The notes beneath the pieces were generated by a model, which was not told where the DNA came from, did not search any database, and saw only the letters and a list, made by a program, of their open reading frames with translations. 40,320 nucleotides of DNA from Candidatus Edwardsiibacteriota bacterium (lineage in GTDB: Bacteria; Edwardsbacteria; AC1; EtOH8): positions 1 to 40,320 of the forward strand of contig JAGVNJ010000004.1 in NCBI GenBank assembly GCA_020053305.1, given 5' to 3'. Within the stretch, counting starts at the first letter, position 1. Every line of letters starts with the position of its first letter. This document shows, piece after piece, positions 12,820 to 29,697 of the stretch. The position numbers and the translations under genes were made by a program.

Positions 12820-13926
12820 TCAAGCCATTGTTTGGCGACCAAGAACCTTAGCAATCAGTTCTTGCAGTTCCTTGGCGCTTTTTTCGTCATCCGGATCACT
12901 GTTTTCTATAGCTAATTGATGGGACCTGGCTGCTGCCCGCTCCGCCTCGGGTAGGTTGTTTAAGGCCGTCTGAATTTTAGCCAGCAAAAGGTACTGCTCT
13001 GGAAGAAAATACTTAAGGCCCAGCTTTTCCCCGATGGTTATCGCTTCCCGAATTTCACGAAGAGCGCTTTCATGCACCCCAAGATAATAGCTGGCCTTGC
13101 CCAGGTTCCCCAAAGCCAGGCACATTCCTTTTTTCCCACCCATCTGGTTTGCCAGTTCCAGTTGCCGGCGATAATTGTCCCTGGCCTGTGGATATTCTTC
13201 AAACTGGATATGATAGTTGCCAATGTTTCCTAGAGCCACCCCTATTTTTTCCTTATCCCCGATGGTTTGCGACAGGCTCAAGAAGTCCCGAAAATACTTT
13301 ATGGCTGGTTCGTACTGGCCCCGCTGGGCATAGATGCATCCCAGGGCCCCCATGGCCACGGCTTGAAAATCTTTTCTTCCTTCTTTCCTGGCATTTTCGT
13401 CCTGCCGGTGGTACCATTTCTCGGCCAAGGCAAGGTCACCACTGGCATATTCCAGATTTCCCAGGTTCCCATAGGTGGCGCAAAGCCCCAAGGTGTCATT
13501 AATCTTGGTATTCAGTTCCAAACGGCGTTCGAACAAATTCCTGGCCTCCTGATAACGGGTCTGATTAAGGCGCATGTTACCCAGGATATTGCATACGTCC
13601 GCCTGTTGTTTGAGGTTGCCCATCCTTTGGAATAAAGTATCGGCCGTTAACAGTTTCTCCTCGGCTTCGGCATAGTCGCCCATTTTATATAACACCCGAC
13701 CGATATTTACCAACTGGGCGGCGGCCAGCACTGTCAAAGATGCCTCTTCCGTAAAATCTGCCAAGTCCCGGTAGGTTTCCAAGGCTATGCTCCACATCCC
13801 CATCAGTTCCCTGACCTCGGCCCGACGCAGGTGCAGGTCGTACGGCAGATACTTTCCGCCGTCTTTTTTAGGCTCACCCAGCCAAAGGAGGGTTGTGTGA
13901 TATCTATGACCTGAACTTTTTGCCAT
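12820..13926 (-). CDS. TPR protein 1
   Basis: The start at 13926 (MAKSSGHRYHTTLLWLGEPK) is chosen because upstream codons would run through a terminator hairpin and because a promoter places transcription start one base before this ATG. The 368-residue protein is built of about 8 tetratricopeptide repeats of 40 residues, of the TPR_12 type, with 'LGNLGNLEYASGDLALAEKW' and 'LGNIGNYHIQFEEYPQARDN'. It has no signal peptide, membrane helix or enzyme domain, so it should be a cytoplasmic protein-binding scaffold. Its N-terminus (RY..LLW....Y.P..LHLRRAE...L.G.W..AL) is shared with TPR proteins at 18976 and 29698, so these are paralogues. The gene stands alone between two near-identical hairpins. 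Partner and function unknown. Confidence 0.85.
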   Translation of the reverse strand: MAKSSGHRYHTTLLWLGEPKKDGGKYLPYDLHLRRAEVRELMGMWSIALETYRDLADFTEEASLTVLAAAQLVNIGRVLYKMGDYAEAEEKLLTADTLFQRMGNLKQQADVCNILGNMRLNQTRYQEARNLFERRLELNTKINDTLGLCATYGNLGNLEYASGDLALAEKWYHRQDENARKEGRKDFQAVAMGALGCIYAQRGQYEPAIKYFRDFLSLSQTIGDKEKIGVALGNIGNYHIQFEEYPQARDNYRRQLELANQMGGKKGMCLALGNLGKASYYLGVHESALREIREAITIGEKLGLKYFLPEQYLLLAKIQTALNNLPEAERAAARSHQLAIENSDPDDEKSAKELQELIAKVLGRQTMA

Positions 13927-13933
13927 TGGATTT

Positions 13934-13962
13934 ATTATACAATCAACCAACCCGGGATGCAA
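13934..13962 (-). promoter_or_regulatory. Promoter giving a leaderless mRNA for TPR protein 1
   Basis: TTGCAT, a 17-base spacer and TATAAT on the minus strand. The -10 box ends 7 bases before the ATG at 13926, so the expected start of transcription (13927) leaves a leader of about one base. No Shine-Dalgarno is present. Confidence 0.65.
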
Positions 13963-13965
13963 CAG

Positions 13966-13994
13966 AAAAGCCGTGGCATAACGCCACGGCTTTT
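13966..13994 (-). terminator. Terminator hairpin after the hcp operon (copy B of the flanking repeat)
   Basis: AAAAGCCGTGGC and GCCACGGCTTTT form a 12-base-pair stem with a 5-base loop. On the minus strand it is followed by TTTTCTGTT, on the plus strand by a perfect T6, so it could work in both directions. It ends the operon that finishes with hcp at 14167, and is the near-duplicate of 12776-12800 on the other side of TPR gene 1. Confidence 0.7.
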
Positions 13995-14051
13995 TTGTTA
14001 ACAATCCCTCTCCGCATTCAGCCTACGTAGCTGGGAGTAATACTATTGAGT

Positions 14052-18484: not shown

Positions 18485-18530
18485 GCTTTATCTTAATATA
18501 TGTTTGAGAAATATTAAAATCGTTCCGCGG

Positions 18531-18917
18531 CTATATCGCGGCCAGCACCACCTTGAGCTTATCCCTTATCTGCGTAGCCTCCCCTAAAAGCGATGGGCTG
18601 TCGATGGCCCGGACCCCGGCCACCGGATCCACTATCGACACTTCGATCTTTTCGGGAGAGACCTCATCCACCACCACATTACAGGGCAGCAACAGGCCCA
18701 CCTTGGCCTCCTTCTGAAGGACCTTGTAGGTGAAAGGCGCGTTGCAGATCCCCAGTATCAGATATCTGCGAAAATCCATGTTCAGTTTGGTTTTAAAGGT
18801 CTCCTGCATGTCCAGCTGGGTGACAATGCTGAACCCCTCTTTTTGTAGGTTGAAGGTTATTCTGTGCAGCGCCTTGTCGAAGGGGGCGCTTATCGTTTTA
18901 CTCATGTAGTAGCTCAC
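18531..18917 (-). CDS. DUF302 family protein
   Basis: The start is taken as a GTG at 18917, because GGGGAGG lies 7 bases before it and the encoded sequence VSYYMSKTISAPFDKALHRI matches the usual DUF302 beginning. The 128-residue protein has 'GFSIVTQLDMQETFKTKLNM' and 'RRYLILGICNAPFTYKVLQ', the core family motifs, and ends with 'RAIDSPSLLGEATQIRDKL'. DUF302 domains form small dimers of unknown function, sometimes linked to redox or metal stress. It is upstream of the Rrf2 operon, on the same strand but with its own likely promoter: a TTGACA at 18974-18979 followed by a TAAATA-like -10 box. No cofactor-binding residues can be assigned. Confidence 0.85.
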   Translation of the reverse strand: MSYYMSKTISAPFDKALHRITFNLQKEGFSIVTQLDMQETFKTKLNMDFRRYLILGICNAPFTYKVLQKEAKVGLLLPCNVVVDEVSPEKIEVSIVDPVAGVRAIDSPSLLGEATQIRDKLKVVLAAI

Positions 18918-18975
18918 GATACATCCTCCCCTTAAAATATGTTGGGTTATATTTATTCTGCCCGTATATTTGATG

Positions 18976-20352
18976 TCAAGGAGAATTCGGTTTCTCAACC
19001 TCTTTCAGTAGTTTTTCCACCCCTTTCAACTTCAATTCCAGGTTCAGCTCTTGGTATATTTTCCCGGCTTCCCTTAAAGATCGGCCGGCTCTCTCCCTAT
19101 CCTGCCTGGATATGAAAAACAAGGATAGGCTTACATTTATCTCGGCCGCAAGTTTCTGCTCCCGGATTTCTCCGGCAATGGCCAGAGCCAGTTTATATGA
19201 CTCTTCAGCCAGTTCTGGCCTGCCCTGGTCCTGAAACATTTTCCCGCAAATATGGTGATATCCGGCCTCCATGTTCCTAAAACCGCCCCGGCCTGCCAAT
19301 TCCAAGGCCTTGTTCGCCTCCTTCAGGGAAAGATCATGGTTCCCGGCCCTTCTTTCCCATTCGGCCAGGTCCAGGTAAGCGGAGGCCGCCGATTCATCAT
19401 CGCCGATCTCCGTCGAAATGATGATGGCTTTGTCCAGCATCCGCCGGGCCCTTTCTTTGTCGCCGGTCTCCAGCAGCAGCATTCCCAGGGAATCAAGGGC
19501 CGTGGCCAGCTCCTGGCGGTAGCCGATCTGCTCCAGGATGTTCACATCCCGGGTCAGGCATTCCAGGGCCTGGGCGGTTTCTCCCAATGCCTTGTGGCAA
19601 AGCCCCAGGTTGCCGCTGGCCATGGCCATTCCTTGGCGATATCCCAGGTTTAAAGATATCTGGTAATATTGCCGGTAATTCTCTATGGCTTGGCGATGTT
19701 TCCCCCGCTTCAAATGCACGTTGCCTATGTTCCCCTGGGCCACGCCTATGCCCTGTCGGTCGCCTATCAGGCTGGCAGTTCTCAGATTCTCATGGAAATA
19801 CGTCGCCGCCTCATCCAGCTCCTCCAGGGCAAAATGCACGGTCCCCAAATTGCAGCAGGCTTTCCACACCCCGCACAAATAACCGATCTCCCTGAATATC
19901 CTTAAGGCCTGGCTGAAATGTTCCTTGGCCTTGGGATATTCGCCCCTTGAAAAATGCACGTTACCCAGGTCGCTGTAGGAGGCGGCCAGTTGTTTTATAT
20001 CGCCCATTTCCCGGCACAACGCCTGCTTCTTCAAAAAATGATCCAGGGCCTTGTCGTACTCCCCCTGGCACCAGCAGACGGCGCCCATATTTCCGGTTGC
20101 GATGCAGACCCCGTGAGTATCGTTCATGTCCCGGTAAATCGCCAAGGCTGCTTCTAAAAACGAAACCGCTTCGGGATACTGCCCCTTGTTCCTCAGTAGT
20201 TCTCCCAGGGAGGCCCGGTAATCGGCCAATAATCTTTTTTCGCTGATGGGCTCCATCCATTTAATGCCCTGCCGGTAGATGGCCTCGGCCCGGTCCCATT
20301 CGCCGATAAGCAAAAACAGGGCGGCTCTCTCCCGGTTTATATGGACCGGCAT
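18976..20352 (-). CDS. TPR protein 2 (start uncertain, may extend upstream to about 20424)
   Basis: From the first ATG (20352, MPVHINRERAALFLLIGEWD) the protein has 458 residues, made of about ten 40-residue tetratricopeptide repeats ('ATGNMGAVCWCQGEYDKALD', 'CNLGTVHFALEELDEAATYF', 'AQGNIGNVHLKRGKHRQAIE'). No signal peptide or enzyme domain is seen. The frame stays open upstream, where 'RKYKPRILWAQ' and 'KCINDKTGY' align with the N-termini of TPR proteins 1 and 3 (RY...LW...Y.P..LHL.RAE). There is no ATG, GTG or TTG there; ATA at 20424 or a nearby ATT would be needed. Either translation uses an unusual start, or the original start has been lost and the protein is shortened. A strong promoter at 20530 leads into it. 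Function unknown. Confidence 0.83.
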   Translation of the reverse strand: MPVHINRERAALFLLIGEWDRAEAIYRQGIKWMEPISEKRLLADYRASLGELLRNKGQYPEAVSFLEAALAIYRDMNDTHGVCIATGNMGAVCWCQGEYDKALDHFLKKQALCREMGDIKQLAASYSDLGNVHFSRGEYPKAKEHFSQALRIFREIGYLCGVWKACCNLGTVHFALEELDEAATYFHENLRTASLIGDRQGIGVAQGNIGNVHLKRGKHRQAIENYRQYYQISLNLGYRQGMAMASGNLGLCHKALGETAQALECLTRDVNILEQIGYRQELATALDSLGMLLLETGDKERARRMLDKAIIISTEIGDDESAASAYLDLAEWERRAGNHDLSLKEANKALELAGRGGFRNMEAGYHHICGKMFQDQGRPELAEESYKLALAIAGEIREQKLAAEINVSLSLFFISRQDRERAGRSLREAGKIYQELNLELKLKGVEKLLKEVEKPNSP

Positions 20353-20529
20353 ATAGCCTGTTTTGTCGTTAATGCATTTTTGCGCCCATAAAATCCTGGG
20401 TTTATATTTTCTTATATCTTTTATCTCAAATATCCTTTCGATATATCCAAAAATTTCCTTCGCGCAAGATATCTTTAAATATATTGCGGGTGATGAATAT
20501 GATATGTCGCAAAGATGTTCCTATAAATC

Positions 20530-20558
20530 ATTGTATTATATGCCGGGGTTGCTGTCAA
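20530..20558 (-). promoter_or_regulatory. Consensus sigma-70 promoter for TPR protein 2
   Basis: TTGACA, exactly 17 bases, TACAAT on the minus strand, just after the terminator of the porV operon. Predicted start is near 20523, giving a leader of about 170 bases to the first ATG, or about 100 if translation starts with the conserved upstream region. Confidence 0.85.
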
Positions 20559-20570
20559 TTTTAAAATATA

Positions 20571-20604
20571 AAAAGCCGCGCCCGAACTTCGGGGAACGGC
20601 TTTT
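20571..20604 (-). terminator. Terminator of the porV operon
   Basis: AAAAGCCG pairs with CGGCTTTT, and an inner CCCGAA pairs with TTCGGG. On the minus strand the stem is followed by TTTTTATATTTT. It lies about 70 bases after the porV stop codon. Confidence 0.85.
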
Positions 20605-20676
20605 GAACCGGAGGTTGATTTTCACACAGCTCAACGTAACCACACCTTCAACCAATAATATGGAGGGAATTTCTTT

Positions 20677-21567
20677 CTATTTCCTGTAGCCTATGGAGAA
20701 CATATGGGTGGAGCCCAGGTCCTTCCCCGGGATCATGGCGTAATCCACCGAGATCCCTCTGATGGCAGTGCCGAACCCGAAACGCATCCACGACAGGAAT
20801 CCTTCGTCGCGCTCGGTCTTAAGTCCGGCCCGCAGCGACAGATACTGCCAGGGAGAATATTCGGCGCCCAGTGATAGCACCGGCTTATCATCCATGGGAA
20901 CATCGATGGAGACCGCCGGGACCAGCGGGGTGTTGTAGAAATAATAGGTGGCGCCCAGGGAAAATGTTATGGGAAGTCCGCCGCTTTCGTCATGAAAATT
21001 AAGTCCCGGGCCGATATTCCTCAGGGACGAACCCAGGGTGATCCTTTGGAGTTTTTTTATCGCCCCGATATCGAACATCACCGAGCTGGCCGACTCCTGC
21101 TCGATGGCCTCATGCAATATTTTGACATTTACCCCGGCCTGCAGCTTTCTCCCGGGGAATTTGCGGGCATAACCGGCCATGATTCCCAGGTCGCTGCCGT
21201 TGAAGACCGATTCATTACGGGCGTGTTCGTCCAGGCCGATCATGTCGCCGTAGTTGAAGTGACTGACTGCCAGGGAAAAGGCATTCTTGCCGGAGGCCAT
21301 GGCTCCGGCCAGGTATCCGTAGTACATATCCAGATAGGTGGGAGCCATCGAAGCGCTGAAGGCCGTTTTCCCCACATCGGCCAGCCCGGCCGGGTTCCAG
21401 TAGGAGCTGTATATGTCGCCGGTGACGGCGCAGAAGGCTTCTCCCATGGCGGTGGGCCGGGCTCCCTGGGGCAGGGTCAAAAAGACGCCCGATCTGTCGC
21501 CGGGGGTCATGGCCGGTGAAACGGCCGCGCTGGCCGTCAGAATTAATATGATAAATATTTTTTTCAT
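20677..21567 (-). CDS. PorV/PorQ family outer-membrane protein
   Basis: The 296-residue protein has a signal peptide (MKKIFIILILTASAAVSPAM) followed by the family hallmark: 'QGARPTAMGEAFCAVTGDIY' then 'SSYWNPAGLAD', and ends with barrel-like strands ('LSLRAGLKTERDEGFLSWMR', 'HMFSIGYRK'). PorV is a small outer-membrane barrel that in type IX secretion shuttles cargo with C-terminal sorting domains to the cell surface. The gene directly follows, by 12 bases, a secreted protein that has such a domain, so the two are probably partner and cargo. Other type IX components are not in the window. The family also includes general outer-membrane proteins (UPF0164), so the assignment to T9SS is inference. 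Confidence 0.87.
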   Translation of the reverse strand: MKKIFIILILTASAAVSPAMTPGDRSGVFLTLPQGARPTAMGEAFCAVTGDIYSSYWNPAGLADVGKTAFSASMAPTYLDMYYGYLAGAMASGKNAFSLAVSHFNYGDMIGLDEHARNESVFNGSDLGIMAGYARKFPGRKLQAGVNVKILHEAIEQESASSVMFDIGAIKKLQRITLGSSLRNIGPGLNFHDESGGLPITFSLGATYYFYNTPLVPAVSIDVPMDDKPVLSLGAEYSPWQYLSLRAGLKTERDEGFLSWMRFGFGTAIRGISVDYAMIPGKDLGSTHMFSIGYRK

Positions 21568-29656: not shown

Positions 29657-29697
29657 ACGATACCCTTTCCAGGGACAATATAGCGCAGGGATTGACC

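Follow-up and report, generated by a model that had tools for sequence, protein, structure and literature searches.

Where does translation of this TPR gene begin? The window, a 40,320-nt stretch that makes up the entire contig C52 of a draft genome (2.59 Mb, 77 contigs, 99% complete), carries on its minus strand a 458-codon frame running from ATG 20352 to a stop at 18976. The frame is open much further upstream, as far as the in-frame stop TAG 20523, and the part preceding ATG 20352 translates as RKYKPRILWAQKCINDKTGY, an N-terminus conserved across a large TPR family. Counted from ATA 20424, the 24 codons ahead of that ATG give IKDIRKYKPRILWAQKCINDKTGY. None of the 56 codons between TAG 20523 and ATG 20352 is ATG, GTG or TTG, and ATG 20352 is the first canonical start in the frame. 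The in-frame near-cognate codons found before the conserved Trp were ATA (20505, 20484, 20472, 20433, 20424 and 20415), ATT (20454 and 20394) and ATC (20442). The sequence-only reading had described the upstream frame as open and free of canonical starts, and both points hold; its statement that only ATA and ATT are available overlooked the ATC. The main features are listed in Table 1.

Table 1 Features of the TPR gene and its upstream region, in window coordinates.
Feature	Position	Strand	Remarks
TPR gene	18976..20424	-	482 residues from the ATA; Pfam TPR models and predicted helix solenoid
ATA, proposed start codon	20422..20424	-	spacing 6 nt from the projected GGAGG end; duplex -9.6 kcal/mol
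Extended Shine-Dalgarno GAAAGGA	20433..20439	-	7-base complementarity to the 3' region of the G000 16S
Conserved N-terminal segment IKDIRKYKPRILWAQKCINDKTGY	20353..20424	-	13-member alignment and profile match
ATG, first canonical start codon	20350..20352	-	within the conserved motif (YYPY part); weak SD
Predicted leader hairpin, AT-rich, 14 + 4 pairs	20441..20484	-	MFE fold; ends 1 nt before the SD
Promoter-like TTGACA-N17-TACAAT	20530..20558	-	11/12 consensus; sister species G003 has the same hexamers, equally spaced, in the corresponding position
Stretch holding the gene	18922..20529	-	no counterpart at the syntenic sites of sister species G003 and G002 (BLASTN blocks)

A frameshift or a wrong reading frame was considered and rejected: RKYKPRILW and the TPR body share one frame without a stop in between, and the out-of-frame upstream ATG and TTG codons run into stops without yielding the motif. 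A longer protein starting before ~20454 is thought unlikely, the leader (20529-20353) having a G + C content of 32%, against 55% in the gene. For this leader no counterpart was found among the compared loci, the best being a 16-base match.

The family, defined in this analysis by its RY..LW..YYPY N-terminus, is represented three times in the window. In the gene studied here the motif is followed by an intact array of TPR_12 repeats, scoring 178 bits (93 and 111 bits in the other two window members). We aligned 13 N-termini: three from the window, including that of this gene, and ten from further loci in the same and related genomes. Two elements were invariant throughout, the LW Trp and the first repeat's G.W. 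The similarity to both other window members, noticed from the sequence alone, was thus confirmed and extended to ten further N-termini. A profile of the N-terminus gave 138 matches, in 10/10 genomes of this taxonomic family and with 5 to 22 per genome. The site of this gene ranked 10 of 138 (74 bits, E 2e-20), a score inflated by the inclusion of this sequence in the profile. A scan of genome contigs gave just two distant TPR loci. For another TPR gene of the window (12820-14004, minus strand) the ORF list gives TTG 14004 as start, and the family alignment indicates ATG 13908.

The repeats are of the same type as in known TPR solenoids (Pfam PF13424, TPR_12; solved relatives PINS/LGN, NprR and Rap). 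The PDB matches by sequence and the predicted all-helical solenoid agree with this. Unlike the solved proteins, the family has its own N-terminal RY..LW..YYPY motif, and the best stretches of all 51 PDB matches start at query residue 23 or later. A single one of the 19 NCBIfam matches passed its cut-off, and narrowly (76.1 vs 75 bits): the subfamily model NF053720, for the NsdA family TPR-like regulatory protein. Its best stretch covered only residues 194-382, which are generic TPR sequence, and the other two window members scored far under the cut-off (34.6 and 28.6). The gene is not assigned to the NsdA family. AlphaFold2, run with an alignment of the three window proteins, predicted an unbroken TPR solenoid from residue 29 (mean pLDDT 88.7), in a numbering where residue 1 is ATA 20433 and residue 28 is ATG 20352. 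Residues 1-28 had a pLDDT below 50, the three-sequence alignment being too small to judge the N-terminal segment. According to the model, a start at ATG 20352 would lose only this segment and retain the predicted solenoid, and such a short form could fold.

With respect to ribosome binding, we compared the upstream region with the 3' terminus of the G000 16S gene, GGATCACCTCCTTTCT, assuming the mature 16S rRNA 3' end for all pairings. This end carries the CCUCCUUUCU tail, which the 16S 3' end of Bacillota also has. Of the in-frame near-cognates, ATA 20424 alone had a strong Shine-Dalgarno (SD) at good spacing. Three-base matches were found before ATA 20415 and ATA 20433, and a five-base match at spacing 11 before ATC 20442. 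At ATG 20352 the SD was a three-base match as well, with -2.5 kcal/mol. Because of this difference in SD strength and spacing, we favor the AUA start among the two options of the sequence-only reading. The predicted unpaired fractions were 0.68 for the SD, 0.70 for ATA 20424 and 0.71 for ATG 20352; the predicted RNA accessibility does not favor the ATA over the ATG and is uninformative. The MFE fold of 20523-20313 had a z of -2.07, a value for the entire stretch. Searching Rfam over 18900-20720 matched nothing up to E 1. No mobile-element ends were recognized among the repeats in 18850-20720, which were TPR-type repeats and short pairs only.

To see how common such a start is in the family, we surveyed the 116 profile matches with E <= 0.001, the 22 weaker ones being excluded. 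A canonical start was counted when ATG, GTG or TTG occurred within W-32..W-4 (codons before the conserved Trp). Such a codon was present in 113/116 motif-bearing members; its presence does not prove its use as start. Only this gene and G005:C196:2875 had no canonical codon back to the in-frame stop. In the third exception, G004:C2:27235, the sole canonical codon was an ATG 39 codons before the Trp. In all three exceptions a strong SD preceded a near-cognate at spacing 6; the codon was ATA behind seven bases in this gene, ATT behind six (GAGGTG) in G004:C2, and CTG behind five (GGAGG) in G005:C196. Among the other 113 members, a near-cognate with an SD of at least five bases was found in 2 at spacing 5-7, in 5 at 4-8 and in 8 at 3-9 (Fisher p for 3/3 against these: 4e-5, 2e-4 and 6.5e-4, respectively). 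When the G004 case was dropped, the comparison was 2/2 vs 3/114 (p 0.0015). With the narrower range W-32..W-8 two more members fell out, having canonical codons at W-7 or W-6, and the comparisons were 3/5 vs 2/111 at spacing 5-7 (p 4e-4) and 3/5 vs 7/111 at spacing 3-9 (p 0.004). All these p-values are indicative, because the association was tested after the site had been seen and the members are related.

The two other exceptions have features of their own. The CTG-started candidate (G005:C196:2475-3124, L164) sits among several family members clustered on its contig. The ATT of G004:C2:27135-27790 (L156) lies at W-32, the outer limit of the counted range, with 6 nt between it and the projected end of the SD, and overlaps AATTAG, possibly the end of an upstream gene.

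Near-cognate starts are also indicated for infC, the IF3 gene, which in E. coli starts at AUU. We found infC in 10/10 genomes of the taxonomic family (L181-L190, G000-G009). Its conserved coding sequence began with ATT in six (G000-G004, G007), with ATC in three (G006, G008, G009) and with TTG in G005. The ATT or ATC lies 7-8 nt behind GGAGG. In G008 there was no canonical start from the in-frame stop to the ATC. A TTG five codons upstream, overlapping the SD, was present in G000-G003, and an ATG 12 codons upstream in G006 and G009; for these genomes we therefore infer the near-cognate start from position and SD. These infC starts suggest that initiation at AUU and AUC is available in the lineage. 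The TPR gene resembles infC in that a strong SD stands before a near-cognate codon. It differs in that infC has a conserved start that serves autoregulation, which is mentioned in the available part of PMC13009471, and the codon type is the only tie between the TPR gene and IF3.

For AUA itself, the closest parallels come from Staphylococcus aureus. The available part of PMC13009471 lists AUA starts for infC, ccpN and citZ, and an AUU start for cvfC1; extended SDs are predicted for three of them (infC, ccpN and cvfC1). Reporter yields given there were ~10% of AUG in poor medium; in rich medium, ccpN reached as much as 30%. The available part of a second source (PMC11497404) deals with other codons. 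Like S. aureus infC and ccpN, the TPR gene combines an AUA codon with strong SD pairing, and, by analogy with the S. aureus AUA genes as described in that part of PMC13009471, weak and tunable initiation would be expected for it. There are also differences. In S. aureus, according to the same part of the source, ribosome profiling and reporter assays measured AUA initiation, and different species share the ccpN codon; the TPR gene is known from its sequence, and no close orthologue with the ATA was found. Moreover, the gene studied here encodes a TPR protein in an unrelated lineage.

The surroundings of the gene differ between closely related genomes. In G003, 108 other nucleotides take the place of 18922-20529, and in G002, 21 nt take the place of 18495-20569, which includes the small downstream gene. 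Both sites are otherwise collinear, and the closest flanking blocks in the sister species were 83-85% identical. Either this species acquired the gene or its sisters lost it. The next gene upstream encodes a member of the PorV/PorQ family (NF033709). Downstream, the small gene (18531-18998, minus strand) had relatives in only 2/10 genomes. The ORF list starts it at TTG 18998; GTG 18917, behind GGGGAGG, looks like its start, and sister species G003 has an ATG there.

No close orthologue of the gene was found in the 61 genomes searched (10 of the taxonomic family and 51 of the same domain). The nearest homologues, G004:C66, G007:C199 and G005:C13 (genera g2 and g3), had identities of 44, 43 and 39%, respectively, across the matched part. 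They had upstream ATG or GTG starts and kept the N-terminal region, which is less well preserved in G007 and G005. Orthologues starting at the downstream methionine and lacking the upstream motif, proposed earlier as the pattern that would speak against the extension, were thus not seen among these three, a weak test because they are not close orthologues. We also looked at the other window genes as a control, in which 18/36 frames had a counterpart at >= 50% in two sister regions. Conservation often ran a few residues (up to 13) upstream of the first start, and at 29692 it extended 84 residues, over DNA of a purE-like frame that was recognized by eye. The control does not discriminate, the DNA being too similar between the window and the sister regions, and it was not used.

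Taken on their own terms, several other explanations could account for the missing start. A recent G-to-A change may have removed an ATG at 20424, leaving a decaying gene or a 458-residue protein made from ATG 20352. This start loss, with its shortening by 24 residues, was the second option of the sequence-only reading and we consider it rather unlikely. An ATG would be the simplest ancestor of an ATA behind a good SD, and the absence of the stretch from the syntenic site in both sister species indicates that the genus can do without the gene. The solenoid is predicted to begin one residue past ATG 20352, in agreement with a short form that could fold. However, the SD of that ATG is weak, and the frame is free of stops and frameshifts from 20523 to 18976. 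In addition, strong SDs are uncommon before the canonical codons of the family (SD of at least five bases at spacing 4-8 in 8/113 members), so that an ATG lost at random, or misread, would seldom leave one behind. It is mainly this rarity that leads us to prefer compensation over both random loss and a misread base. The latter, a consensus or assembly error at 20422 in an organism that has ATG at 20424, is improbable. A single base is decisive here and the genome is a 77-contig draft; nevertheless, the base is unambiguous in the record, and an error at this site would not account for the two members in other genomes in which the usual start is missing and a strong SD likewise precedes a near-cognate.

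Initiation elsewhere in the leader is very improbable. It could use another near-cognate (ATA 20415, ATA 20433 or ATC 20442), and the paralogue G000:C18 has an ATG immediately before RKYNPGILW, to which ATA 20415 is the nearest equivalent; the SD matches at these codons are short or, for the ATC, distant. Alternatively, ribosomes could re-initiate at ATG 20352 after translating a short out-of-frame ORF from ATG 20389 to TAA 20371-20369. This ORF ends 16 nt ahead of ATG 20352, but its own ATG is predicted to be mostly paired (0.34 unpaired).

The gene thus probably starts at AUA 20424, aided by the extended SD. The promoter at 20558-20530 would yield a transcript bearing GAAAGGA, whose seven-base pairing with the 16S 3' end would put the AUA in the P site, where the initiator tRNA would read it in spite of the third-base mismatch. 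The product would be the full 482-residue TPR protein with the N-terminal segment of the family, made at a low level, and initiation should depend on IF3. What the DNA itself shows is the motif without a canonical start before it, a well-spaced SD, a promoter match, and three members in which a near-cognate goes with a strong SD; initiation at the AUA, its low yield and its IF3 dependence are what we infer. Against the AUA start, the leader is ATA-rich, so that any SD in it could well have an ATA nearby by chance.

An AUA start is a rare and usually weak way of initiating a protein. A gene finder limited to ATG, GTG and TTG would cut 24 conserved residues from this one. If confirmed, the start would be a case of AUA initiation beyond infC, in a little-known lineage, and would support the view that a strong SD can offset a weak start codon, with three different near-cognates in three members. 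If refuted, the locus would be a case of start-codon loss caught early. A further, speculative and on balance unlikely reading is that near-cognate starts (AUA, AUU, CUG) with strong SDs recur and are selected in an expanding TPR family, as a dosage dial. If so, the start-less members would not be dying genes, but newly gained paralogues kept at low, IF3-tuned expression.
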